From Parelaphostrongylus tenuis (taxonomy: Eukaryota; Nematoda; Chromadorea; Rhabditida; Metastrongylidae), in the NCBI GenBank assembly GCA_019055375.1, contig JAHQIW010007074.1, positions 186,001 to 250,000 of the forward strand: DNA of 64,000 nt. Direction: 5' to 3'. Numbering within the stretch: the stretch's first letter is position 1; every line of letters begins with the position of its first letter. The notes beneath the pieces are model-generated. The model saw only the letters and a list, made by a program, of their open reading frames with translations. It had not been told where the DNA came from and did no database searches. Both the position numbers and the translations under genes were made by a program. This document shows positions 1 through 61,090 of the stretch, in pieces.

Positions 1-566
1 AAGGAAATATTTTCCTTGTAGTTCACACCAGAGAATTGTCTTTGTAATGTGCCGAGAGATACTCTTTTAATGTGACTCCTGCGTGACCCATTTCGGCCCT
101 GGGTTTGTTCGTATCTCATTGGTTTCACCGCTGACATCGTAAAAGAAGGGCTCACCGTTAGAGGCACTGAGGCTGGCTCTTTTCTTGATCGAGATTTAAG
201 ATAACTGTGCTAGGGTACTCTCAAGTTGTCACCATAGACCTATAGGCTAAAGTGCGGTTTCTTACTTACCGCTTGGGTTTCTTTTAGAACGAGGATAAAT
301 CTTGGAGGTGCATTTTCTTGTGAAAATTGCTTAATTCAGAAAAGGCTTGAATATTTATTTGCAGTGCTAACTAGAGTTGTTTTGTTAATCTCAGGTATCC
401 GTTTAAGTACATAAATGTAATAAAAAGAAAAGTAGGTTGTTCTTCACTCTTATATAAGTGACTTTACATGATTGCAGTGATCATTACTACAGCAAATTTG
501 GAGTCAATCCCAACCACTTTTTTCTAAAACATTTTGCAGAATTGTGCAAATAAATTTGTTGTATAG
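1..566 (+). other. 5' intron sequence of the fructose-bisphosphatase gene
   Basis: The first recognisable exon starts at 567 in the middle of the protein (about residue 58 of a normal enzyme). I looked here for the missing N-terminal residues, including the conserved AISSAVRKAG-type stretch, and found none, so the upstream exons lie outside the window. Nothing else stands out in this stretch. Confidence 0.6.
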
Positions 567-3500
567 GTATGGTATTGCTGGCTCAACGAATATGCAAGGT
601 GAAGAAGTAAAAAAGCTTGATGTACTATCAAATGAGCTTATGATCAATATGTTCAAATCCAGTTACACGACATGTGCGCTTCTATCAGAGGAAAACGAAG
701 AGCTAATCAAGGTATTCCTGTAACCGAGTGAATTTTATAGGATATATCAATGATACGCTATTTTTTCAGGTCGAAAAAAGCAAACAGGGCCATTATTTTG
801 TGGCGTTTGATCCTCTCGACGGTTCGTCGAATATTGATTGTTTAGCACCAACTGGAACAATTTTTGGAATCTATAGGAAGGTGGGATATAATTCATTTTC
901 TTATTTGCATGAAAAAGCACGTTTAGCACTGATTTGGCGTGTCGTGCACTCTTGATCCCTCATTCGAATCTTCACATTGGGCCAGCCAAAGACTCCATGA
1001 GTTAGCCAGTTTTATAAGAGACTATAAAAATACTGATTTGGTACATTGGAGGATCATTTGAGCGAGCTGTATAGTCCGGTATGCATTCAGTCAGCTTTGA
1101 AGTGCTACATACGTAGTCGGATGCGTAGTGTGTAGAAGCAGTCTTAAATCTTTTTGAGATGAATATTCTTTTTATAGGGGAAGAGGAAAGAGCTCGACGT
1201 TCTATGTTGACTACGAATGATACGTTTTATGGGGCTAGTGGGCGACTGAACTTTTACTCTTATCGTGCAAATGAAGTAGCATATGTCACATAGCGGAAGA
1301 AAGAAGACCCTCAATAATGACAAGAGTAGCGTTTAGAGTAATCTATTTATAGAAAAGTGATGGTGACGTCACACTGGACGATGTACTAAGACCAGGAAGA
1401 GAGATGGTGGCTGCTGGATATGCTCTCTATGGTTCAGCGACCATAGTTGTTTTCACTACTGGTAACGGTGTAAATGGATTCACTCTCGATCCAGTGTGTC
1501 CATTCACTTGTTTCTTCCTCTTATCGCTAAAATGTTCTCTTTTTCTATTTTTTCTAAGTTTGAATTTTGTTTTACGACGCTTAACATTCATATAAGGTTC
1601 TAATGTGGAGAGAATTTTGTATTTCTCTTTTCAGATGATTTTTTGTCCTTTTCGCCTATACTCAACAAATATTTCATTTCAGTCTATTGGTGAATTCATT
1701 CTCACTCATCCTAATATGAAATGCAAACCGAAAGGCTCCACTTATTCGGTTAATGAAGGATACACAGCAACTTGGAGCAAAGGAATAGCGGAGTATATTC
1801 GCACACGAAAAGAAGATCACCCAGGAAGGAAGGTAATTATTGTGAATTCATATCCCAAAATGATGCAGGCTTTTCTTGCACATATTACAATCATTATTGC
1901 TATCGTACTGCAATTGAATTCAAGATTTCTTATATATTTATTGCTTTTTCGCCGCGTTTCAATGCTTCAAACTCAAAACGGGTTCAACTCCCGTCCGAGG
2001 TCGAATTTTTGCTTACCACTAAGGTCTCTCAGGTTGATTTGGAACAATCATTACTATCATTGCTAGCATTATCATCACCGCTCATTACTACTAATATTAT
2101 CACCATTGCTATTATTATCATTATTAATGTGACCACTTGTCACATATACTGTGCATCGCAGCACTTTGTGCATTCAATTAGTTTCCTCACGTCAGTGGTC
2201 TCAACGGTCTTCCAACGCTTCTCATGTTGTTTTGACTGCTGTTTCAAGATTTCCTCTTGCTCATGAAAGTCTACTAAATTGCTGGACGAGATGAATTATC
2301 CTGTTGTCTTGAAGATAGTCGAGCTAAAGTCATATCATTTGATTGCAAGAGAGTATCGAGGGTGGGCTTGCAATTGGCAGCCTTCTTGGATTTACCCTGA
2401 AATCTCCTAGATAAAAGCGGTCTGTGCTAGAAAATAGTACTTATGTGCTACTAGTGAGTCCCGGTAGGATGAAGCAGGCACCTGCACAGCACTAGACCTC
2501 AATGGCTCAGAACATGTCATATACTTACCAGATCATCATTACCTGAGCGAGGTTTTTTAAAAAGCGGTAGAATGGAGAGGTATGATTCATTTTGAAAAGC
2601 CACAACCTGGACTACCGATTACTACAATGTCAGATAATTTCATCGTCTGACTTGGGGTAATTTATTGCTCGGCGTTGATTCCCTCACATCAGTCTCAAGG
2701 GATCGGCTGAACTGAGGACGGCGCTTCTGGTGAATCCCGGTACGATGAAATAGGTTCCTGTATAGCAATTAGGCCTTGATGTCTCAAAACACGCTGTATC
2801 TTTACAACATTCAGTAGTAATTTCAGTATTTTCCAGTATTTTATAGATTTGGTGATCTCTAGAAATTCTAAAACTTGAAAAAAAGCTTCATTACCGAAAG
2901 TCGAGCGTGATTTTTCCTTCTTTTTTGAAAAAAATAAAGCCTCTCTTGTCTATGGAATTTTTGGGTGATGTATGAAAATGGAACGGGAATTTCCAAGGCA
3001 AGGAAAATGGCATCGCTAACACTGACCTGTTCACTATCAAGGATTTTAATCTAGCACTTTTTTCATCCGTCTCACAGTTTTTTTTTTTACTGTGCGGATC
3101 CAAGTACTAGCATTATGTTCGTTTTTCGTCTTCTTCGTGAATGTTGTAGATTACTAGTCGATCACGTCTCATTCGATTCGAGGATAGGTTTTCTATGGCG
3201 TTCCACAGGCTGTTCGTTGTTGACTATGACTAGCATGGTCAAAAACTTTGTACTCGAGCTGCATACTGTACTTCTGAGAAACGTGTTCTGTAGGGATATT
3301 TTGAATTTAACACTGTAGGCCTGAACAGGAGAATGTGTATTACGATGGTTAGAGGTTATGTGTCAGATCCATGTGGTATTGCTTTGATCCATCACCCTGA
3401 GTAAGCCATTTTTCCTCTTTCACTACAGAATAGAAGTGTATTTGCGCCAGACTTGTTTGGGAAGACGAAATTCATATCGGTTGTTAATGGAAGATATTGT

Positions 3501-5205
3501 ACAGGTCAAATGTGTATTTAGTCAGTTGTGCACAGAGAACTCGAATACATGACTCATCCTTAAGCAGTTAATCGACACCATACATCCCATCTTTTATTTT
3601 TCACCTCTGGAACGCTGATTTCAGGCTATGGGTTAACGATATGTTGGATCAATGGTAGCTGATGTTCATCGAGCACTATTAAATGGTGGCATCTTTCTAT
3701 ATCCGGCAACTGCAAGTTCACCAAATGGCAAAGTAAGAGTAAAAGATATCACTGAATAGACCAAATGATATTCTTTTTATTTAACCGCTTATAGCGGTGG
3801 AATGATGTTCCAAAGATATACCCATTGATGTAGAGTGATGTGCAAAACTTTCGAGTCAGCCGGGACTAGAACCTGCACCTTACCTTTCCGGTAATGTGTG
3901 CTCTATCCGTTTCACTATTGACGCCCATTTTGCACATCGCTCTTTTTGCGCTACAGCGCACCTATCTGTCAGCCGCCAGCCGTCAACGGCCTGGCCCGGG
4001 TGGTCGGTTTCAACATTGAACCCAGTCACACTGACAGATTTTGGGTATTATAGATTAAATGATATTCTTTTTATTCAACCGCTTATACTGGTAGTATGAT
4101 GTCTACTTTGACTTTAAGGTGGTATGATGCCGACTACCCGGGCCAGGCTGTTGTCGGCTGGCGGCTGACAGATAGGTGCGCCGTAGTGTAGAAAGAGCGA
4201 TATGCAAAATGGGCGTCAATAGTGTAACGGATAGAACACGCATTCCCGTGAAGAGTGAGGTGCAGGTTCTAGTCCCACCTGACGCGAAAGATTTGCACAT
4301 CACTCTACATCAATGGGTATATCACGAAAGTGTTTCGTTTTTCATAGGTTCAATGTCATTTTGCAGTGAAAATCTAATAACACTGGTTGTCCTGTTAGAG
4401 GATTTTGTTGTCAACCTATCGCTTTAAAAAAGCTGAATTTTTTGTTTTCGTCGAAGATTTAGCTAAGAGATGACCATCTCGCTCGTATTTCTTGTCATTC
4501 GAAACATTCGTTGGTTGAGAAATGTTACACTGTGTTAGAAAATACAGAATATCAGGGCAATCGTACATAGTTTATCATTAAAGCTAACAGTATACTGCTA
4601 AATTATGTTGCTTAATACCTGAACATTTTATTCTCGTCACCTTCCAATAGTATGACAACTGATGAGTCTGCAAAATTTGAGATGACACAAGATGTCTAGG
4701 GTTATCATCAATGATCCACTGGGGACCACCTACGTTTTTCCCATAAAGAAGTGGAAATTTTTGCAACAGACTCCAATATACATTTCGATCTTTTTTTCGC
4801 AGCTTGTAATAAAAAGGAGAAATAAGTACCCAGTTTATAGAAAATCAGGAATAGGTAAAAAATAATCTCTTTGTTTGGAATCTAGTTCGGAGATGATATT
4901 ATCAGATTTGCAGTAGTTTCTTTCCTTTCCTATCTTCTGCGATTTGAGACACTACGGTTACAGCTACGGCTTCTTTACGAATGTAATCCGATGGCAATGA
5001 TCCTTGAACAAGCCGGAGGTGTAGCCACCACTGGAAAAATGCGCATATTGGACATTGTTCCGAAGAAGGTTTAAAAGTTCAAATTTTTCAATACTATATG
5101 TGATTTGACAAGTGATTTCAGATTCACGAGCGTGCTCCGGTTATACTCGGTTCAAGGGATGACGTCACGGAAGCGATGGAATTCATTGAGAAATATGATT
5201 CATAG
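567..5205 (+). CDS. fbp-1: Fructose-1,6-bisphosphatase, 5'-partial, seven exons, with an in-frame stop
   Basis: Class I fructose-1,6-bisphosphatase removes the 1-phosphate of fructose 1,6-bisphosphate, the committed cytosolic step of gluconeogenesis. Exons: 567-711, 770-880, 1353-1493, 1683-1832, 3625-3732, 4964-5068 and 5122-5205 (TAG). All internal junctions are GT-AG and phase 0. They encode 280 codons, matching about residue 58 to the C-terminus of the roughly 338-residue animal enzyme; the N-terminal AMP-site region is upstream of the window. Visible landmarks are YGIAGSTN at the start of the first exon, the acidic LLSEENEE metal-site segment at its end, the active-site motif [13 protein letters not shown] in exon 2, [12 protein letters not shown] in exon 3, [11 protein letters not shown] and GGIFLYPA in exon 5, and LLYECNPM followed by LEQAGG (metal-binding Glu) in exon 6. 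Codon 4 of exon 5 is TAA (3634-3636). This is therefore a nonsense allele, a pseudogene or an assembly error. Identification is very secure; functionality is not. Confidence 0.93.
1965..2035 (+). repeat. S4 tRNA-like repeat fragment
   Basis: Contains the B-box-like GGGTTCAACTCCCGT, then CCGAGGTCGAATTTTTGCTTACCACTAA, shared with copies near 52060, 54080 and 54665. Only the 3' half is present. It lies in intron 4 of the fructose-bisphosphatase gene. Confidence 0.55.
2038..2132 (+). repeat. Imperfect ATT/ATC trinucleotide repeat
   Basis: A run of interrupted ATT, ATC and ACT triplets in intron 4 of the fructose-bisphosphatase gene. It produces long spurious open frames and is not coding. Confidence 0.6.
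2445..2492 (+). ncRNA. Degenerate hammerhead-like motif, family F4, copy 1
   Basis: Stem I GTGCT/AGCAC closes the motif. The core reads CTAGTGA instead of CTGANGA, so two catalytic positions are changed. Stem II is GTCC/GGAT over a CGGTA loop, followed by GAAG and a long stem III CAGG/CCTG. It lies in intron 4 of fructose-bisphosphatase, about 280 bases before a second, related copy in the same orientation. Predicted inactive. Confidence 0.45.
2721..2766 (+). ncRNA. Degenerate hammerhead-like motif, family F4, copy 2
   Basis: Core CTGGTGA (2727-2733, one change from CTGANGA), stem II region with the same CCCGGTA loop as copy 1, an intact GAAA (2747-2750) and a stem III AGG/CCT. Upstream it shares GGGATCGGCTGAA with the F2 repeat at 38620. 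Downstream both F4 copies carry a TAGRCCTTRATG segment and then CTCA-AACA. Predicted weak or inactive. Confidence 0.45.
3075..3245 (-). repeat. S2 tRNA-Ser-type SINE, 5'-truncated
   Basis: Matches other S2 copies: a poly-T tract, CTGTGCGGATCCAAGTACT, then a segment ending in GTTCGTTGTTGACTA. The tRNA-like head is missing. It lies in intron 4 of fructose-bisphosphatase. Confidence 0.55.
3634..3636 (+). other. In-frame TAA inside fructose-bisphosphatase exon 5
   Basis: After the acceptor at 3623-3624 the phase-0 reading is Ala-Met-Gly-stop, then Arg-Tyr-Val-Gly-Ser-Met. The family normally has a short Pro-Tyr-Gly-like segment and then Arg-Tyr, the residues that contact substrate. The other two frames hit stops within 40 bases and lose the conserved sequence, so no alternative acceptor rescues it. 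The bases TATGGGTTA followed by CGA would read Tyr-Gly-Leu-Arg in a shifted frame, so a missing base before TAT and an extra A after TTA could also explain it. That looks like either two sequencing indels or two compensating mutations. Confidence 0.75.
3757..4040 (-). repeat. S3 tRNA-derived SINE, nearly full copy
   Basis: Read on the minus strand it has a GGCCAGGCCGTTGACGGCTG head, an A-box-like region, GTGCAGGTTCTAGTCCCGGCTGAC as B box, then TTTTGCACATCACTCTACATC and a tail ending in ACCGCTATAAGCGGTTAAATAAAAAG. It lies in intron 5 of fructose-bisphosphatase and forms a palindrome with the copy at 4125-4330. Confidence 0.7.
4045..4130 (-). repeat. S3 SINE 3' tail fragment
   Basis: Repeats the AAATGATATTCTTTTTAT plus AACCGCTTATA tail segment also seen at 3757-3797, in direct orientation to it. 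It sits between the two opposed S3 copies. Confidence 0.55.
4125..4330 (+). repeat. S3 tRNA-derived SINE, inverted partner
   Basis: CTACCCGGGCCAGGCTGTTG head, GGCTGGCGGCTGACAGATAG, a degenerate tRNA-like centre with GCAGGTTCTAGTCCCACCTG as B box, and GCACATCACTCTACATCAATG. It is complementary to 3820-4010 over about 190 bases, so the pair can fold into a long hairpin in the pre-mRNA. Confidence 0.7.
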
Positions 5206-17835: not shown

Positions 17836-18178
17836 CAGATCTTATAAATATTACTTGAGCCAACATGTCATGGGGTCTGTTAAATGGGCAATTGTGTGTA
17901 CAGCACTGTCTTTTCAGTGACAATTTCACTTGACTTACAGTGTAAAATGTTCGTCGTCGGCTAATCTTAGTATAGGAGGCTGAGCGCCTCAGAAAATTGG
18001 CTAAAGACGAAGGGCACCACCCAACTGATGAGACCGTCAAGGGCGAAACAAATCTATTGGGCTCTATAAGTCAGCCCATTTAACAGACCACATGACATAT
18101 TCGCTCAAATAATAACTCTGAGATATACTGAAATTTGAGCGTGGTCTAAAAAAACTAGAAATAAAGGTATAACATTTT
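17836..18178 (+). repeat. F1 foldback element with inverted ends
   Basis: The left end (AACATGTCATGGGGTCTGTT) is inverted relative to the right end (AACAGACCACATGACATATT). The centre has CACTTGACTTACAGTGTAAA, GGCTAAAGACGAAGG and the hammerhead motif at 18020-18061. The right end continues through GTGGTCT into AAATAAAGGTATAA. Confidence 0.7.
18020..18061 (+). ncRNA. Hammerhead ribozyme motif, F1
   Basis: Stem I CCCAA/TTGGG, core CTGATGA (18025-18031), stem II GACC/GGGC, GAAA (18045-18048), then ACAAATCTA with predicted cleavage after 18056. The stem I pair differs from the CCCGA/TCGGG of other copies at both strands, a compensatory change. Position 16.2 is C rather than G, which weakens stem III, so activity is doubtful. 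Confidence 0.6.
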
Positions 18179-20717: not shown

Positions 20718-23700
20718 ATGCGAATCAGTGGATTTATCGTGTTCGTCGCCTGTGTCGTCGCTTGGGCGTTTGCCGTTCCAGTCAGCGATTCTGAAGCAGC
20801 CTACAGGATATGTGAGTACTGCCTTCTCCTACCAACTTAACTTATTTTTCAGTTCCGAACACGAAGAAAATCATATGTAAGAATATGTAATAGTAAATAT
20901 TACATAAGAAATATGTAAGAATCTCATTTTGTGCGTTTTGAAAGCGAAAGATACTAGAAACGACACAAATTCTCTACTTGTTAGCATCATCATTTGTATA
21001 GTAATGTAGCTATCTGCAATGTCAATTAGTAAATTCGTTGTTATGGTCGTTACCTAGGGCGGAAGTAATTTTTAATTGGCTGGAGAGCATATGGTGTATT
21101 GGACCAGATTTGTAATTTTCAAAATTGAAGCAGATCTTCATTTCATCAGCTGACGAATAGCTCAAAACCCAACTCATTCATCGTTCAAACAGTGCTAGTC
21201 AGAACATTTTGAGTCGTCAAAAATCCACGATATGAAATTGGAATCCCGATTTATGGGAAAGCACTACACGTGGGAATCAAGAAAATCTAACGTTAATAAT
21301 TTCCTACATAACTAAAACCATCTAAAATAACTCTAAATTCAAATGATCTCTTGACTTCACCAACTCTGTATACCTTTTTTTCATGAAGTGATCCCTAAGA
21401 AAGAGTGCAAGTGCGAATCTGTTACCAGTTTTGCGATGAGTCGGAATAATCAGACCTCAAAAGTGACAGATTTTTCTCACTTTTAGTCACATTATCGCAC
21501 CAGAATTCATTTTTTCCGATGAAGTTAGCCCATAACGCACAGCAGTTATTCTATAGTGTACGTGGGTCTGATGATTATGACCTCTCAAATTCACTTTTTG
21601 AGATCCTTTAGTCCTTCTAAAACTCACTTCCCATTTTGTTAGCCTAAGAATAGAGCGATTGTTTTGAAAAACCAGAGCCACGCCTTTACTGTTTATTAAA
21701 TAAATACTGATTTGAGTGCAATGTTGTAATTGGGCTGACCGCTCTGGGTTAATTAATCACTCTGAAGGAGCTCCACTTCATCAGTTGACCGATAAGTCAC
21801 ATCTGACATTGTGTAGAAAACTCACGGACTGTACAGATGACTAGACGAATATCGGTATCTTTCAAATAGCATGCGATATTTTCTTGGTTTATCTGACTTT
21901 ACCACAAGCCTGTCAGCTTGAAGAAATTTGAAAAAATTACAATTGATCATTTTTTCAGTGAATCAGTATCTTCAACGGTTCGGCGCCGAAGATTTAAGAG
22001 ATACGTACTTCATTGGAGACCATGGGTGAGCTAGTGATTTTATTTAATAAATAGTAAACCGCTCAAAATAGACAGTATCATGTGGAGCAGTGCATTACTC
22101 TTGTCATACAAAAGGGCTACTTGATCCCAGGGTAAATCAAGCCCTACATCTTGAGTTCAGCACATTGATATTAGACATTTCTGAAAGATGAAAAAATTGA
22201 GCTAATGCATTGAAAAAACCTCACTCGTTACGTGCTCATAATATATGTATTTGTATTTGGGGTAAATTAATCACCTCAAAGTTTCTTTATGATGACGAAT
22301 GCATGGCTGATCTCAAACGGGTTAGTGGGGGCCAAAAAAATTAATTATTTATTTTTTAAGCCCCTATCTATTACACAAGTCGAGGCTATGTGAGGCATAA
22401 CGGCCTAGCGAGTTTTATGAGGACGGAATTAACTCTTTTTATCTTTAATTTCGAGTGTTCTATTAAGACCACGCTCAAATTTTGATATAACTCAAAATTA
22501 TTATTTGAGTTAACATGTCATGTGGTCTGTCAATGGGCTCTTGTACAGCCCGATCACGTGTTTCGGCCTTGCAGCCTCGTCAGTCGGGCAGGGCAGGCGC
22601 TTCGTCTTTGGCCAATCATCTCGGGGGCCCCTACACCCCTTATAAAGAGATAGACGAAGACGAACGATTTACACAATCGCAGTCAGGTGAAAAATTGATG
22701 GACTTAACCGTGCTAAAAAGTTGGCAAATTAGCCATCAAATTTCTTCTGACCGAGGTGTCTTTGAATATGTGCTAAATCATTGAAAATCTAGGAATTGCA
22801 TTCTCGAGAAAATAGGAACCAATTTCAACAGGGCAGTATCTAGGTGCATGGTGGTTGAGTTTTGATCGGTTCATGGCTTGTTTAGCCAGCAGAATAATCA
22901 GCTATAAAATTTTAGAATAACATTAGAAATGAGCAAATGTAATCCTCACTTCTCCTTCAGTTCTGTGACTTTATACTTGTGGAACAATAAGATTCGTCAG
23001 CGTACAAGTGACCTGAGAGTACTACGATTGGCCATTAGATTGCTTCGCTTATAAAATTATCATTGTGGTCATTTGACTTGGAATTTGCTATTTCCTATTC
23101 TTCAGCATGAATAGAATATTTAATAGCTCTATCAAGCGCGTAAATAAATAAAACGAAGGGACTATTGGAAATCACGAGAGTATGAGCTCACCGGTGGTTG
23201 TCGGATCTAATGAATAATTTATCTCATTTCACGCCACTCACCTTACGCGGTTCTTGATTCCTGTGGGAATTTGACTTTGGTCGAATTCTTCTCTTCTTTT
23301 ATGATTTAATATAAATATCAATACGTTCGTTCGCGAGGACTGCGCCTTGATTGTTAATAATTGACTACTAAAACAAGAAAATAATTTGATAAATTCGAAA
23401 TGGTCAAATGTTTGAAGTACGTTGTTCTTTTTTAGAGAGAGAAAACAACGGCGATGTAATCACTTGAATTGACAACGAGTCAGCTGCGGACTTGTTTGTT
23501 TTAAACCGAAAATTCGGTCCCGAGATACTTTCCAAACATTTAGATGAACGCTAATAGATCAATATCGCGATATCAAACGACGAAGTTGTAAAGCTGGAAA
23601 CTATTATCCAAAACTTATTAGTGAATAGCAGCCAGAAGTTACAGATATTTTCTTTGAATTTTTGTAGATCGAGGAAAACACCGCAAACTGATTGAGGTTG

Positions 23701-33689: not shown

Positions 33690-33915
33690 AGTTGGTGATA
33701 ATTTCACTTGACATATAGTGTAAATTGCTCGTCGCCACTTACTTCTTCATAGGTAGAGTAGGGGCTCCCAAAAGGATTGGCTTAAGATTAAAAGACGAAG
33801 AGTTCTGCCTTACTGGCGAGACTGTAAGGGCTAAACACGTCTATCGGGCTGTACAATAGCCCATTAACAGATCACATGACATGTTGGCTCAAATAATAAT
33901 TATGAGATATGATTG
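33690..33915 (+). repeat. F1 foldback element
   Basis: GGTGATAATTTCACTTGACA, GTGTAAATTGCTCGTCG, GTAGAGTAGGGGCTCCC, then the ribozyme remnant at 33807-33849 and CCCATTAACAGATCACATGA. Ends near 33915. Confidence 0.7.
33807..33849 (+). ncRNA. Degenerate hammerhead motif, F1
   Basis: Core CTGGCGA instead of CTGANGA, stem II ACT/GGG over GTAA, CTAAAC in place of CGAAAC, then ACACGTCTA and TCGGGC. Two catalytic changes make it almost certainly inactive. Confidence 0.5.
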
Positions 33916-37880: not shown

Positions 37881-38351
37881 CCTTAGTATGTCATAATCCA
37901 GCCTTCTAGCAATGAATTTTTATATAATAAAAAGACCGAATAATGCAATATTGTATGCAATATTGTAAAACTTCGTAACACATATGAAAAAATTTTCATC
38001 TGTGCCGCTTCAAGAGTATGATGAGTTTTGATGAAATGTCCTACCGGATGTAATCTTCTCAGAATTTAAATAGATCGTAAATTCTAAACGATGTTCAGAT
38101 GCTTGACCTCTCTGTTTGTACAATTTGGTGAGAAAATCAAACTATCATCCTCATAGATTGAAGAAAGCGGGAAGCGTACAAATCGTGATCAATAATATCC
38201 AGTGGTTTCCATTTCTACAATAAAATTGGTATGAGTCGAGATGAAATCATGTGAAAGGGGCTTTTCGCATTACGCAACTTCATGTAAGGTCGCAGTATCT
38301 CGTATTTCACTCTAATTCCCAGGAAAAGAAAAGTCATTGTGATAGTTTTAT

Positions 38352-38760
38352 AACATGATATTTGAGCTTTTATGAGGTGTGGTAGTGCACTTATACAGTG
38401 CTAGACAGTTGCTATTTCGTCCTTGCGCACTCTTCAATATCACGGTGCCTTTCGATACAGGTGATTCTTGTAGGGAGATATCCCCTTACTTATTAAGAAA
38501 TTTTATAAGAAAAAGAAAGGAAATAAAAGAGAAAAAGATCAGAGATATAAAAGGGTTTTCACTCGACAAGCAGCGATTTAATAATTCGGAGTCGATTCGT
38601 TTATAAGTAGGATATATCCCCTTACAAGGATCGGCTGAATCGAAATTCACTATGCTACTGATGAGCTTGTAAGGGCGAAACAGCAGCTGCCTAGTACTGT
38701 ATAAGTGCCTTAATAGGCTTCATAAAAGGCGCGCAACATCTTGCCGTGTATCAGATTATC
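38352..38760. repeat. F2 foldback element
   Basis: Ends AACATGATATTTGAGC (left) and, inverted, GGCGCGCAACATCTTG (right). Internal ATATCCCCTTA and ACAAGGATCGGCTGAA blocks occur in each arm. A ribozyme remnant lies in the left arm (minus) and a better one in the right arm (38652-38697). Confidence 0.65.
38652..38697 (+). ncRNA. Hammerhead ribozyme motif, F2
   Basis: Stem I TGCTA/TAGTA, intact core CTGATGA (38658-38664), stem II GCTT/GGGC over GTAA, intact GAAA (38677-38680), stem III CAG/CTG. Base 16.1 is C rather than U next to the predicted cut after 38691, which should reduce cleavage. Confidence 0.65.
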
Positions 38761-38779
38761 ACATTGTTATTGTTTTTGA

Positions 38780-39780
38780 GCAAGGTCTTCATATACAGTC
38801 GAGAGTAAAAGAAGTTCTGGTTTACTTCTGAGTGAAAGGAGACATTATTGCTGGGAAACAAGCAAGGATATAGAGGTTTTTTATACTCTGTTAAGGCGTG
38901 AACTTCTGTAAGTATTTAGCTAGGCTCTTAACCCATAGATTTCATGTTTTATTAATATTGAATGGACGTGTTTACGTCAGACCATTTATCTTGTTCTTCA
39001 CACAATAAATGACACTCGAGTGAACAATATCTGAATATCTGAATGGTACAAAACATTTCAGTCATAACAATCTTGCTGAAGTTTCCCTATAAGAATGGTG
39101 CAACGTACTTTCACAAAAAGTGTCAGGGTGAATGACGTTGTCGCAATAAAAGTGCTGAAGAAAAGATTAGCGAATGGTTCAAAATTTTCTATCCCTACAA
39201 CAACTTTTTTGATTATCTGGAAACGATTCAATGTAATGGGTGGCTCTATTTTTTCGTTTTTTTTCTGATTGTATCAAACTACGAGCTCGAAATGAAATTA
39301 ATGAAAGCGAAATGAAAACTAAGTTACTAAAAATAATGAAAGGTGTGTGAAGAACTTTGAGCGCAGAAGGGAAGTATTAACATAAACTTTGTCATTTTGT
39401 TCGATGTTCCCCTCTTTCAAAGTAAGTTTGTAGCTCTAAAACGCTCTTCACTTCTCCGGTCAATTACGTATCAAATAAGTTTGAAATTTTACTTCCGATA
39501 CAAAAATTGACTCTCTATTTAATTACTTTTTTCCATAACTAATAACGCAGCTATGTCCGCAATTTAGTGATTCACCTAGTCATCAGTCCTCTTGATGATA
39601 TTTCCGTCTTTAATACTGTCACTGCCGCTGTTGTTCTGAGAAAACGACTATTTACATCAATGAATTGTTTGCCTACGAGAGTTTCTTCGGTCAAGCAAAA
39701 TCATCCATCATTTAAATTTGCTCATTTGAGGACCATCGACAATTGTCATTGTCATTAACTTCAAAAAAAGAAAACATAAA
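38780..39780. other. Intergenic, nothing recognised
   Basis: AT-rich, short frames only. Confidence 0.35.
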
Positions 39781-45770: not shown

Positions 45771-46433
45771 GTGGCTCTGACATAGCAACCTCGAAAGCGC
45801 TCTAAACATTCTCACAGACTATGTTTCATTTTTCATTATTACATTCTTTGGTGCTAATAGATCAACAACCTTTGAGTTATTCGAATTCTGAAGTATCGTT
45901 TATCGTACATAACTTGTGATAGTTGCAAAAGGTGAATCTCCTCCGGAAATGGCAACTATTTGAAAACTATCGGCTTACTTTAGTGAGAGCAATGAAGTTT
46001 TGTGTAGCAGTCGCACACAGCCGCGCTTAAATATTCGCCCGCGCGCGCGCTATGCATTAAGTTCAATGCGTACGACCCTTTCTCCAATTAAATCGGGGTG
46101 TTTTCAAGTGTCTAATTAGATTTTATCGAAAATCTCGTTCATATTGAAATTCATGTTGCACTGTGGGTAGAAATGTTCAGCGAAACACACGTGGCATGTG
46201 AGTTGATCCTGTGCTCAGCAAAGTAAGCAGAAAGTCCTTCATTACCTCTAAGTTAGCAATTTGATATCACAGCAAAAAACAGTGGCTTGATACATTTAAA
46301 GATTCACACAAGGCATTAAAATCAACTCCACTATAAATACTTTTAAGTTCGCGCGACACTGGAGATTAACAACTACACATTATCTGATAACATATTTTTA
46401 GCCTTTCATGAGGTCTGATATAGCACTTATAAA

Positions 46434-46476
46434 ATGCTAGACACGTGTTTCGGCCTTTCATCCTCATTAGTAGCAA
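46434..46476 (-). ncRNA. Hammerhead motif in left F2 arm
   Basis: Minus strand: stem I TTGCTA/TAGCAT, core CTAATGA (G5 changed to A), stem II closing with GG/CC, GAAA, ACA/TGT stem III over CG, predicted cut GUC before TAGCAT. The G5 change should abolish catalysis. Confidence 0.6.
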
Positions 46477-46667
46477 GATGCCTTTGTTTTAGCTGCTGTC
46501 TGCCAGTCCCTTGTAAGAGGATATACTTATCACATATAGAGGTTTAGAAGACGAAGATGTTACGCTCTACGCTTAAAGTGAAAAAATCACCTCACATCAC
46601 AGAGATAACAAATCACTACATTTCCAGTGATAACGTCACCCACATTGTGGCTGAAATGCAAGGCACC

Positions 46668-46710
46668 GTGCTACTGATGAGGTTGTAAGGCCGAAACAAG
46701 TGTTTAGCAC
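46668..46710 (+). ncRNA. Intact-looking type I hammerhead ribozyme
   Basis: Stem I GTGCTA (46668-46673) pairs fully with TAGCAC (46705-46710). Core CTGATGA is at 46674-46680. Stem II GGTT/GGCC (46681-46692) has a GTAA tetraloop. GAAA is at 46693-46696. Stem III is three pairs (ACA/TGT, 46696-46703) over a 2-base loop, and the cleavage triplet is GUU with cutting predicted after 46704. Every position required in the hammerhead consensus is present. Such minimal stem III hammerheads are known from Penelope-like elements, where two molecules may pair to cleave. Confidence 0.82.
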
Positions 46711-46987
46711 CTATAAGTGCCATATCAGGCTCAAGAAAGGCTCAAAACATGTTATCAGATTACGTTGCTTCAAATAAGGTCTCAAAAAAACAATCGAATG
46801 AAGAGGTGTCTATCCCCGTAATTTTCCTTATCCGTTTCTAGGGAATTTTATATCCCACGCACCCACTGTGTTCTTCTGTTCAACTTTTGATGTCCTTCTA
46901 AGATATTTATATGTGGTATAAAAAATCTCAGCAACTACGTAAGAACATCGCATTGACTTTGTACTAAAAGACTAGTATGGTCAGATA

Positions 46988-48394: not shown

Positions 48395-48505
48395 AATGAT
48401 AAAGAGTGATGTGAAAAACATTTGCGTCTGTTGGGATTCGAACTCACATTTCACCCTATCCAGGAGCGCATGCTAAACCGTTTGCACTACCTACGCTTTG
48501 AGAAG
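48395..48505 (-). repeat. S3 SINE, head region
   Basis: Minus strand: GTAGGTAGTGCAAACGGTTT (A box), AGCATGCGCTCCTGGATAGG, GTGAGTTCGAATCCCAACAG (B box), ACGCAAATG. Confidence 0.7.
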
Positions 48506-52059: not shown

Positions 52060-52190
52060 CGCAAATGTACCTCTGTGGTGTAGTGGTAGCACGCGTCCCT
52101 GATGTGGATGCAATGCGGGTTCAACTCCGTCTGAGGACGTGTTTTTTGCTTACCGCTCAGTTCTCTTGGGAATATAGAAAATTTGTTACC
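52060..52190 (+). repeat. S4 tRNA-like repeat
   Basis: CCTCTGTGGTGTAGTGGTAG (A box), CACGCGTCCCTGATGTGG, TGCGGGTTCAACTCCGTCTG (B box), then TTTTTTGCTTACCGCTCAGT and TCTCTTGGGAATAT border. Confidence 0.65.
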
Positions 52191-54664: not shown

Positions 54665-54815
54665 ATTACTAAGAGAATCGAGTGGTGAGCAAAAATCCTC
54701 GGTGGCGTAGTGGTAGCACGCGTCCCCGACATGGATCAAACGCGGGGTTCGAATCCCGTCTGAGGTCATATTTTCACCCATTATTCATAATCTCTTGAGA
54801 ATGGCCACGAAACAT
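54665..54815 (+). repeat. S4 tRNA-like repeat, near-cloverleaf centre
   Basis: The centre (54697-54767) starts CCTCGGTGGCGTAGTGGTAG and ends GGGTTCGAATCCCGTCTGAGG. A 6-pair acceptor stem, D-arm, anticodon stem (GTCC/GGAT) and T-arm can be drawn, but the T loop has one extra base and position 33 is C. Inverted borders CTAAGAGAATCGAG and AATCTCTTGAG flank it, so I treat it as a repeat rather than a working tRNA. Confidence 0.6.
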
Positions 54816-54819
54816 CGTA

Positions 54820-56275
54820 ACTCTACGACAAAATGCAGTTAAATACTAGGAATTTCGAATACTGAATTCTTTACTAATGTTGACAAATCAATACAGTATG
54901 CCACGGCTCATCATCCAAAAATCACGACCGCATGCACCAATATGCGCTTATACCATTGTAAGAAAAAGTAATGTAGTAAAATAAACAAGTCAGTAACTTA
55001 TCAAGAAAACGATCCTACCAAGTAAGAAACGGGAAGCTGCAGCTTACATAAAGAGTTGATGGTCTATCTAGACCTGGTCTATGTCTATGGCTAGTTGTCA
55101 AAGCATTAGGTATAAGCTGGAAAGCAATGCCAGCCCTGGGCTTTTCTATGTTTTTTCTCAAAAAGAAACATTTGCGTAATTATAGTTAATCTCTGTGATA
55201 ATTGTAAATGAAAAACGCATGAGTATCTACAATTAATGTGAAACATTCTGACATTAGATGATTACTTGTTAATTAACGCAAGGAGAATCGCGATGTCAAC
55301 TAGAACAACTGGTGATCATCCAGATCCAACCCATCGGTTCAGACTAATTTCTATCCTATAGATCGTCCATGAACTTTATAACCACCAATATACTGCACTC
55401 AAATCCTCGAAATTGCAACACTCATGCTACCGTTTCCAGTGGAACTAGTGAATGACCCACAAGTTATAACGCTCTTTTCTATGTTATAATATCCGAAAAC
55501 ACAAGAACATTGTAGTAGAATTTATCTGCAAAAATGATCGTCATAATGTTTCGGTTTGTTTTTTTCTAGCTCAGTACAACAATCTGACATAATAGAGCCA
55601 CATTTAGTGTGACTTCCCTGAAAAGGAATTGAAGCATAAGTAATGAAAGTTACAAAGAAAATACCTGTCTATTTCTTCTGTGAAAATCACAATTCATTTC
55701 AGAATTCTATTTTCAGGCGTCGTTTTGTGCTTTAGCTTTTGTATTCCACTTTTTAATCTTCTTATGAAACACTTATTGTATAGCGCAGTTACGCATTCAG
55801 TCACTCTATCAATGCTTGATGAAGTTGAATGCATAAAGCAACCTTCAGGGAGGATCATGTTCTAGAACTCTACTCTATAAGCTTTTTACTGTTGACAAGA
55901 ATAACGAATAGGTGTACAGAGTTTGCTAAGGTATTCTGAGACCCAATGTATTCAAATGAATATCACTTTCCACCTAAGATACAATGCAGAAGATTTCCTA
56001 CTAGTTTCTCATAGTATTGCCAATCCCTGATGAGTGGTAAAAAAAAATGGTCGGCAGGAATTTTTGTGAGAAATAGTAGAACCATGAACAAAACAGTAGG
56101 AACACAAGTAAACTGTTGACCTATTGTAAGTGTTCATGTGAAGAATGGAAATCACAAATTGATGTGAAAATAAGTGTCAAAAATATCAGATGCCATCAAC
56201 AGCCTTATTAATGACATTTACAGCAACCATAATTCCTTTCTATTCGACTGTTTTTGAGACCTCGCTTGAAATTCA
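54820..56275. other. Intergenic, nothing recognised
   Basis: AT-rich; a 61-codon frame at 55680-55865 is not supported. Confidence 0.35.
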
Positions 56276-56278
56276 ATA

Positions 56279-56541
56279 TAATCTGATAGCATACTTCAAG
56301 CCTTTCAGTCTGATATGACACTAGTAAAGCTGGATGTACGTTTCGGTTTCATGTCAAGACTCATCAGTTGCACATGCCTTTTGACCCAACTGATGTTCGA
56401 CGCTGATTCTCTTATATGTAGGGATCTATTGGACCGAAAGGCACGTGCTGCTAGTATGCCTGACATAAAAAGTGAAACTCAATTTTAATAGTCTAAGTAC
56501 CATATAAGGCCTCTGAAAGGCTCAAAATATGCTATCAAGCT
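56279..56541. repeat. F2 foldback element, decayed
   Basis: TAATCTGATAGCATACTTCA and, inverted, GCTTGATAGCATATTTTGAG ends; AGCCTTTCAGTCTGATATGA matches other F2 copies. The right-arm ribozyme is lost. Confidence 0.6.
56325..56375 (-). ncRNA. Hammerhead relic in F2
   Basis: Minus strand: intact CTGATGA (+ strand 56361-56367) and GAAA (56341-56344), but stem II is almost unpaired and stem III is changed. Likely inactive. Confidence 0.45.
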
Positions 56542-56804
56542 ATAACATAATCGAAGTTGACAATATCAAAATGATATTCCCCATTATGGATGCTGCAGAA
56601 AGTCGTTTTTTCTTGATTTACTTATAATTCAAGTTCAATTTGGGACGAATCTTTGCAGCAAATTCGAAATTGCTAATTATCAGACTGCTTTAAAGAAACT
56701 ATGGCTTGAGAGCAACTTTGTGTAGCTATCGCCTTCACAACAATTATTTTGACTATTGCTGTATATGGCTAATGTGTCTTCTATATTCGATTTTTTTAGC
56801 TCAA

Positions 56805-56881: not shown

Positions 56882-57984
56882 GTCAGTTATCTTGCTAGTT
56901 TCACCGTTTTGAATCACTCGAGCTTTTCACCGATCAATGGAACAAAAAGGCTGGGCAACATCTACACCGACTGCCTTCATTTCATGTGTGAGCAGATATA
57001 AGCGTTAATATTTCACCTTGTTCATGTGTGGTTACGTGAATTTTGCATCATTGACGTGGCCTAACAGTATTCTGGGGCTACTGTGTTATCAAGAACATTT
57101 CTGAACCTTTTCGTCTTTACTGATTACTCTCCATGGATTTGAGTTTTCTTTTTTATTGTCGCATAGAGCAGCTTCTTGTGGTTATTTTAATTAAAAGAAT
57201 TTTTAAATTTGCCTCAAGATGGAAATCTACTGAGGGCAAAAACGATTGTTGACGTTACACGAATATCGCACGTGTTCAATTGCTCCTAAGACTTCCCGCC
57301 GGGTTAACGAGACTTGGGTGACGACCTGGGGTGGCGGAACGGTATGAAGACTGCAGTTTTTAATCGGTCAATGCAAGGCTGGAATTGGAGACTTGACGGT
57401 CACACAAGCAAGGAGCCGGTTTGCGCACAGGAAATGACTGGCAAGCTGTCTCAAATGCAATTGAGACGTCTTCATCATTAACAATACTCGTATAGCATCA
57501 AGAATAGTTTTGCTCTTAAAACATTTCCATCTTAGAACAAGTTTATAAGCGATATGTATTGTAATAACCGCAATAAGCTGCTTTAAGCAACAGTAACAAG
57601 AATCTTGCATACATAGAAAATAATTAACAACAACGAAAAAGTCCGGAAGTTTCTTGCCAACCGAATATTTTTATTGAACAATAATCAAGTATGCTTCTTT
57701 ATGAGAACTGTAAAAGTGGGAGAAGAGAATCTTTTTCTCTATTGTTCTTGAGCACAATCTTAGCTTGTATTCTATATGAACGTGCTAATTCCGACAACCG
57801 TTTTCAAAAATTCCTGAGATGATTGGGAGACAGAGCCATCTGAAAGTGGTCAACGCCCGACACGTGGTATGAAAATGAATAAGAGTTTTGGTGACATATC
57901 AACAGAGGACCTACGATAAAGATATTATTTGAGGTTAGGCGGCAGAAGTGTGCTCGGATTCACATTGCTTGAACATTTCTTTAT

Positions 57985-58193
57985 TATACCTTTATTTCGA
58001 GTGTTCTATTAAACCACGCTCAAATTTCAGTATATCTCATAATTATTATTTGAGCCAACATGCTATGTGGTCTGGTAATGGGCTCTTGTACAGGCCCGAT
58101 CCACGTTTTCGACCTTACAATCACATCAGTCGGGCAGAACCCGCCGTCTTTCAATCTTTTTAGCCAATTCTTTCGGGAATCCTACTCTACGAA
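57985..58193 (-). repeat. F1 element, inverted copy
   Basis: From ACCTTTATTTCGAGTGTTCT to TTCTTTCGGGAATCCTACTC; minus-strand F1 with ribozyme at 58094-58135. It abuts a plus-strand copy, making an inverted pair. Confidence 0.75.
58094..58135 (-). ncRNA. Hammerhead motif, F1 inverted copy
   Basis: Minus strand: stem I GCCCGA/TCGGGC perfect, core CTGATGT (A9 to U), stem II GATT/GGTC over GTAA, GAAA (58107-58110), then a stem III missing one base. Likely inactive. Confidence 0.6.
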
Positions 58194-58535
58194 CCACATG
58201 ACAAGTTGGCTCAAATAATAATTATGAGATATATTGGATTGAGCGCGGTCTTAATGAAACGCTCAAAATAAAGTTACAATATTGCAAAAATCCCAGCCAA
58301 AGAGAAATCGAGTACAACACTGTATGTTCGGTGGTAATTTCACTTGACTTGCAGTGTAAGTCGCTCGTCTTTGCTACCTCTCTATAGGGAGAGTAGGGGC
58401 TCCTGAGAGTACTTGAAAGACGACGGGTTCTGCCCTACTGACGAGACTGCAAAGTCGAAACATGTGCATCGCGCAGTACAAGAGCCCATTACCAGACCAC
58501 ATGACATGTTGCCTTATTGAATAATTATGAGACAC
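58194..58535 (+). repeat. F1 element, full unit with duplicated end
   Basis: Starts ACCACATGACAAGTTGGCTC and repeats ACCACATGACATGTTGCCTT 302 bases later at 58496, so one full unit plus the start of a second is present in direct orientation. The ribozyme (58432-58474) lies just before the second start. Confidence 0.75.
58432..58474 (+). ncRNA. Hammerhead ribozyme motif, F1
   Basis: Core CTGACGA (58438-58444), perfect stem II GACT/AGTC over GCAA, GAAA (58457-58460), stem III ACA/TG over TG, then CA and CGCGC. Base 16.1 is C and stem I has two mismatches, so it is probably slow or dead. Confidence 0.65.
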
Positions 58536-58724
58536 TTCTTTATTCTCTGTTGGTGCGATTCAAAATGCTACCACAAGGATGTTGAGGTCCGGGGAAAACT
58601 CGCGCTTTTAGTTGTACTTCTGACCCTCAATTGCCTTTCTGGAATCTCACATGCTATCTACAACGCCGACATGGATCTTTGTTTTGATACCTTCTCAGTC
58701 ATGTTTTTACCACAACGGTGCTAA
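58527..58724 (+). other. Open frame with a hydrophobic segment
   Basis: Contains KLALLVVLLTLNCLSGISHA, signal-peptide-like, but no ATG close before it and the frame overlaps the end of an F1 repeat. Unsupported as a gene on present evidence. Confidence 0.2.
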
Positions 58725-60919: not shown

Positions 60920-61090
60920 TTATTTAACCGCCTCTTGAGGTGTTATGGTCTTACAAATACCCAATAATGTGGAGTGCTGTGTAAAAACATTTGCGTCAGC
61001 CGGGATTCGAACCCAGATCTCACTCTTTCCGGAAGCGTATGCTAACCGTGACGTCGCCGACGCTCGCTTCTGCGAAGCACTCCACAATAT
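60920..61090 (-). repeat. S3 SINE
   Basis: Minus strand: CGGTTAGCATACGCTTCCGG, GATCTGGGTTCGAATCCCGG (B box), CTGACGCAAATG and tail ACCTCAAGAGGCGGTTAAAT. Confidence 0.75.

Follow-up and report, generated by a model that had tools for sequence, protein, structure and literature searches.

A hammerhead ribozyme motif on the plus strand at positions 46662–46721 of a 64,000-nucleotide stretch of the Parelaphostrongylus tenuis genome (hereafter the window, corresponding to positions 186001–250000 of contig C4776 in the 481.5-Mb assembly) is best explained as part of an old, non-autonomous, retrozyme-like copy that was moved by a Penelope-like protein through two-strand priming. We assign this joint reading a probability of about 0.8. 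Under the proposed mechanism, self-cleavage at the hammerhead would divide tandem transcripts into units of approximately 320 nt, and these units, circular or multimeric, would serve as templates for a Penelope-like reverse transcriptase/GIY-YIG protein. The protein would cut both strands of the target about 10–14 bp apart, and cDNA would begin on each strand at either of two fixed positions 3' of the hammerhead, 47–50 nt from each other. The two cDNAs would then meet 5' end to 5' end. The resulting head-to-head pair would have a short outer end and a long, tailed one, and a single target-site duplication would enclose it.

The hammerhead motif and its structural support

The initial annotation had described a hammerhead with every core residue in place at 46668–46710 (+), and the sequence of this segment is as given there: GTGCTA CTGATGA GGTT GTAA GGCC GAAAC AAGT GTT TAGCAC. 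The core is complete and of type I, with CUGANGA, GAAA and UH in order, stems I to III and an open stem I. Stem I (GTGCTA/TAGCAC, 6 bp) encloses the core CTGATGA, stem II (GGTT-GTAA-GGCC) has four pairs including a G-U, and GAAA is followed by ACAAGTGT and then by H17, a U at 46704. Cleavage of the RNA is predicted after this residue, in agreement with the position annotated previously. The six pairs first described for stem I are present, but the stem runs past the earlier limits: on the far side of an asymmetric internal loop, GGCAC (46662–46666) pairs with GTGCC (46717–46721). The bounds 46662–46721 therefore suit the motif better. The three pairs proposed for stem III are less convincing: they would leave a 2-nt loop, and stem III in many relatives consists of 2 bp and a palindromic tetraloop (ACGU or GUAC). 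It is therefore better read as 2 bp with the loop AAGU. With its 4-nt loop, the window copy differs from the minimal Penelope-type hammerhead, in which GAAAC is directly followed by GUH; this form without helix III is described in passages of PMC6155905.

A strict hammerhead scan of both strands of the window returned exactly one motif, at 46668–46710 (+), for a chance rate of 0.0025 such motifs per window (one match in 400 Markov-1 simulated windows). Single-strand folding was of no use as evidence (z-scores of -0.61 and -0.69). The minimum-energy fold of the 60-mer differs from the hammerhead (-15.1 vs -11.9 kcal/mol), and the same is true of a young copy whose motif is intact (-21.3 vs -16.0 kcal/mol). 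The usual stem III of young copies, ACACGUGU, is self-complementary over 8 nt (self-duplex of -10.3 kcal/mol) and would allow dimeric hammerheads. In the window copy, stem III is ACAAGUGU, the palindrome is broken and the self-duplex reaches only -1.8 kcal/mol, so dimer-assisted cleavage would be weaker than in young copies.

A search with Rfam covariance models, which the initial annotation had suggested as a check, gave a divided outcome. No hammerhead match reached the gathering score in the window, the best sub-threshold match of the window copy being to RF00008 (15.3 bits vs a gathering score of 48.5). Elsewhere in the genome, young A-type copies (described below) passed RF00163 (Hammerhead_1) in five of the eight loci searched, with 13 matches at 34.9 bits vs 34 in L009, L010, L011, L012 and L023 and none at gathering score in L028, L029 and L074. 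In the pairs L010, L011, L012 and L023, Hammerhead_1 was present in both arms. Because Rfam alone misses the window copy, a family model (R1) was built from an alignment of 47 representative copies, all located outside the window and obtained by thinning 86 copies at 90% identity. R1 matched the window copy with 77.8 bits (E 6.5e-19) and no broken pair; the training copies had been picked by their core, and hence the stems alone constitute a test.

The stems covary. Over the 47 copies, 83.7% of 784 cells pair as the hammerhead structure predicts, and 82 cells changed on both sides, compared with 30.9 in shuffled alignments. The covariation score was 0.357 vs 0.189 shuffled and 0.028–0.081 for slid partners, and both measures exceeded all 500 shuffles. 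Two other measures, a count of 8 doubly changed pairs and one of 29 further pair types, showed no excess over shuffles. Double-sided pair changes occurred in stems I and II, while stem III is nearly invariant among the copies and uninformative in this respect. Together, the R1 match and the covarying stems of the relatives support the type I hammerhead fold named in the initial annotation.

A dispersed family with frequent head-to-head pairs

The exact core CTGATGA-N12-GAAAC occurs 4,614 times in the 481.5-Mb genome (2,318 and 2,296 on the two strands), compared with 62 occurrences (27 and 35) of a reversed-pattern control. In the window, a pattern search allowing up to two mismatches found 11 sites, which is not above shuffle expectation (mean of 7.88, with 17 of 100 shuffles reaching 11). 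Six of these sites are alike far beyond the pattern itself, and BLAST and nhmmer revealed two related element types, A and B, dispersed in the window. The A-type unit is approximately 320 nt long with its core at U172 of the unit from locus L009, which served as our ruler, and the tails of the two types are alike. R1 produced 13 matches in the window, 12 of them with E < 0.05 including the window copy. The initial annotation thus lacked 11 further hammerhead-like matches.

These elements are small, non-coding type I hammerhead units, dispersed, tandem or monomeric, and associated with target duplications in 12 of the 26 insertions tested, as in metazoan retrozymes. Neither the 320-nt A unit nor the B elements encode a reverse transcriptase with a GIY-YIG domain, and we do not file them as Penelope-like elements because they are too short to do so. 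The link to Penelope-like retroelements proposed at the outset stands for the biology of the family, which has two start sites, an optional tail, head-to-head or tandem copies and a short target duplication. The motif itself belongs to a dispersed non-autonomous family and to no Penelope element proper. Single arms with 2.6–2.8 tandem units were found in L010 (4423–5301, minus strand) and L009 (4373–5219, plus strand). Their units are alike within the insertion, and such arms would fit a circular or multimeric RNA template. Overall, 11 of 12 values for tandem units within one insertion lay above the between-insertion median of 0.944, as did 16 of 20 values for inverted arms. We also considered whether the arms are exact copies of one template, and the values were too few to decide between one RNA and two.

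Measured against the 320-nt ruler, many young A copies consist of a minus arm followed back to back by a plus arm. A profile survey of 100 clusters gave 46 outward (head-to-head), 47 single-orientation and 7 mixed clusters, and neighbouring profile hits within 600 bp were outward in 57 cases, on the same strand in 28 and inward in 10. When the first 100 listed cores were examined for neighbours at most 600 bp away, 11 were outward, 7 same-strand and 1 inward (C66). The first 15 regions fetched had been chosen largely for holding pairs or neighbours; an unselected run from C2 to C41:62233 contained 9 head-to-head and 7 single-orientation A insertions (hand count, at least 85% identity to the ruler). 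The single-orientation and mixed clusters and the 10 inward neighbours are counted against our preferred explanation. A reading of the family as DNA transposons or MITEs was rejected on the basis of its scattered inner junctions, single-orientation and tandem copies and differing outer ends.

Of 16 head-to-head pairs, 10 had a word of at least 10 nt in common between their flanks, as had 2 of 10 single-orientation copies, compared with 3 of 650 mismatched flanks used as control. Judged by these words, a head-to-head pair usually appears to be one insertion inside one target duplication. It is very unlikely that the pairs arose instead from two independent insertions, with a later element inserting next to an earlier one. 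For 10 of the 16 pairs, the shared word encloses the entire pair, and outward neighbours outnumber inward ones by 11:1 among the first 100 listed cores and by 20:0 among the listed GIY-YIG matches presented below. Pairs that would suit independent insertions do occur: L018, L055 and L072 have no clear target duplication, L055 and L072 do not clearly obey the rule for outer ends, and the inward neighbours mentioned above are also in line with it.

Outer ends, inner junctions and the window copy

Outer ends fall at U258–273 (e1) or at about U308–325 (e2) of the ruler unit, 47–50 nt apart, and it is the e2 end that carries the tail. From the 46 outward clusters of the A and B profile search, 35 could be classified at both ends and 11 could not. 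One e1 and one e2 end were found in 30 of the 35 and ends of the same kind in 5 (p = 1.1e-5), a count that leaves out L001–L008 and L024 (which repeat other loci or the window), L040–L041 (near-duplicates of L035) and L074–L085. The five like-ended and 11 unclassifiable clusters weigh against the preferred explanation. In the window, four of five outward clusters were classifiable and all four follow the e1/e2 rule, including the element that carries the reported motif. Similarly, 13 pairs have flanks that share a word of 8 nt or longer, and 12 of these were e1/e2, the other one (L010) having an e2 and a truncated end; the L010 word was read by eye, and 8-nt words are weak alone (18 of 650 in the mismatched control). 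Whether every insertion uses both start sites, one per cut strand, with a dimeric protein acting on one or two RNAs and the cDNAs joining head to head, we hold at even odds. If so, the nematode hammerhead elements would be a genome-wide archive of the two-strand mechanism and of reverse transcription continuing beyond a single unit.

The inner junctions bear on how the two arms were joined. Their offset was 74–138 nt in 15 of 16 pairs and 22 nt in the last one (L023), so that a single pair lay within 30 nt of symmetry; the junction of L022 is approximate, as one of its arms aligned in two pieces. In fold-back self-priming, the second half of a pair is primed by the cDNA or antisense RNA itself. 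Palindromes at inverted junctions led to this proposal for the Penelope elements of rotifers (in passages of PMC3846280), and the nearly symmetric L023 could be such a case. For the family studied here, we consider it unlikely given the offsets of the other 15 pairs and the unequal arms, with about 2.8 units in the minus arm of L010 and one in its plus arm. Moreover, both outer ends lie at start sites about 50 nt apart, which the fold-back of one cDNA would not give. The junction positions, as read from the assembly, thus favour two-strand priming over self-priming. The model of two-strand priming does not predict that offsets are non-uniform (Kolmogorov-Smirnov p = 0.008 over 160 possible nt, for pairs among L010–L072), and this clustering could have arisen, among other possibilities, because near-perfect palindromes are lost or assembled poorly.

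Two open reading frames were noted in the loci inspected. An RVT_1 frame in L022, LINE-type by eye, lies beside an A copy, and a 784-aa repetitive open frame in L012 (3–2354, minus strand) has scattered weak Pfam matches and is probably a low-complexity repeat.

The reported motif lies in a B-type head-to-head element at 46374–46806 with e1 and e2 outer ends. Its right arm (46648–46806, plus strand; 5' start approximate, by eye) ends at e2 after the tail, and its left arm (46374–46595, minus strand; inner end approximate, by eye) has its outer end at e1. The left arm carries a hammerhead relic at 46423–46482 (-) with CTAATGA, in which G5 is lost. This relic sits approximately 200 bp from the reported motif in inverted orientation, with both lying within an imperfect palindrome at 46377–46765. 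R1 scored it above the window copy (match at 46492–46407, 84.2 bits, E 1.1e-20) although G5 is lost and two of its pairs are broken. For the element at 46374–46806, we recognised no target duplication, which is also counted against the preferred explanation. Two further B-type head-to-head elements were found at 38341–38810 (e1/e2, arms on both strands, with degenerate hammerheads at 38371–38459 on the minus strand and 38636–38724 on the plus strand) and at 56235–56548 (e2/e1, with a hammerhead remnant at 56302–56388 on the minus strand). A-type head-to-head elements occupy 17837–18155 (left end e1, right end unclassified, hammerhead-like match at 18003–18094 on the plus strand) and 57992–58533 (e2/e1, from profile clusters and R1). 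The latter is flanked by the near-identical 12-mers CATTTCTTTATT (57974–57985) and CACTTCTTTATT (58533–58544), which we read by eye as a putative target-site duplication. R1 and homology searches also identified A-type hammerhead relics at 22519–22604 (-) and 33791–33878 (+).

Among 40 scored relatives of 2,452 candidates, the window copy itself included, the nearest are 78–88% identical to it. Because of this divergence, the mutated sister arm and the lack of a recognised target duplication, the window copy is an old relic whose motif happens to be whole. The motif could instead be a functional host ribozyme under selection rather than a transposon relic, and no other copy in the window passes the strict scan. 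This reading is scarcely credible: the dispersed repeat around the motif has decayed, its sister arm is mutated, the stem III palindrome is broken, and no gene has been shown to contain the motif.

Elsewhere in the window, five weak tRNA matches (29.4–37.7 bits vs 29) were found at 4213–4286, 52069–52138 and 54696–54767 on the plus strand and at 48423–48496 and 60992–61063 on the minus strand. By eye, they are of two types and resemble the heads of tRNA-derived SINEs more than tRNA genes. Fructose-1,6-bisphosphatase exons (PF00316) were found at the left end of the window (about 481–5200, plus strand), identical over the shared part to P. tenuis KIN20_034048, with another P. tenuis entry at 96%.

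Autonomous Penelope-like elements and comparison with known systems

GIY-YIG domains (PF01541) were scored at 150 places of 1,723 candidates in the genome. Among these 150 listed matches, neighbours within 5 kb were 20 outward, 1 minus-minus, 1 plus-plus and 0 inward. At locus L074, a 902-aa open frame encodes RVT_1 and GIY-YIG domains between two direct 320-bp terminal repeats that are 99.7% identical; judging from its sequence, this is a full Penelope-like element. Each repeat holds a minimal hammerhead-like motif, CTGAAGA...GAAACGTC, with no loop (R1: 11.5 bits, E 0.085), and both flanks contain GACAATGGA. A B-type copy in L054 (1307–1392, minus strand) likewise has GAAAC directly followed by GTA, a loopless stem III like that of L074. 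The L074 protein had no sequence match among solved structures. Its relatives (93 at E 1e-20 or better, query residues 300–900) occur in Ancylostoma, Necator, Haemonchus, Nippostrongylus and others, mostly under hypothetical, reverse-transcriptase-domain or GIY-YIG-domain names. Angiostrongylus is also among the genera with proteins related to this frame or to portions of it.

The autonomous elements are built like the hammerhead family. The head-to-head copy L075 ends at positions 3884 and 3931 of the L074 element, and L044 shows the same short and long ends. All six outward GIY-YIG pairs fetched (L075 and five more of the 20 listed) were e1/e2, and they share flank words of 12–13 nt, compared with at most 7 nt in 30 mismatched flank pairs. 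The A and B tails have no significant similarity to the L074 Penelope tail (shuffle p from 0.09 to 0.95), so that no descent of the A and B elements from the L074 family is demonstrable, and this too is counted against the preferred explanation. P. tenuis adds a strongylid nematode in which autonomous Penelope-like elements and a high-copy hammerhead family occur together.

The elements described here resemble the metazoan (non-LTR) retrozymes with type I hammerheads (Cervera and de la Pena, 2020, PMC7229834). As far as the portions available of that article indicate, they differ in having a nematode host, in that about half of the examined clusters are head-to-head, and in being known from DNA only. 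Neither 'nematode' nor 'inverted' occurs in its main text. Likewise, the words 'Penelope' and 'ribozyme' do not occur in the accessible portion of the P. tenuis genome paper (PMC10940269), and no report of hammerheads in nematode genomes was found among the titles and abstract openings listed.

How Penelope-like elements insert is unsettled, with two-strand extension in vitro (passages of PMC11167929) on one side and the older self-priming proposal (passages of PMC3846280) on the other. Insertions that are short, datable and numerous, and that carry start sites, junctions and target duplications, make these models separable statistically. According to excerpts of PMC3846280, the endonuclease-containing Penelope elements of the rotifer Adineta vaga have inverted pLTRs, mostly head-to-head, with 8–10-bp target duplications and an optional 31-bp tail at one inverted pLTR; they are of low copy number, and self-priming was favoured. 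They have in common with the elements studied here the head-to-head insert, the short target duplication and the one-sided tail. In P. tenuis, however, a non-autonomous hammerhead family also forms such inserts, the tail measures 47–50 nt, the duplications are mostly 10–14 nt, and the junction asymmetry speaks against self-priming. Head-to-head copies with a one-sided tail were thus already known in rotifers, as the same excerpts indicate, and what is added here is the nematode host, the numbers, a hammerhead family with the same arrangement and the asymmetry of the junctions. As described in sections of PMC11167929, the protein of PAc, a Penelope-like element from Anolis, cuts and extends both strands in vitro (Frangieh et al., 2024). 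Its hammerhead lies beside two adjacent reverse-transcription start sites, the interval between which is the genomic tail, and the start site does not differ between strands in vitro. In contrast, the record presented here is genomic, and within one insertion the start site usually differs between the two ends.
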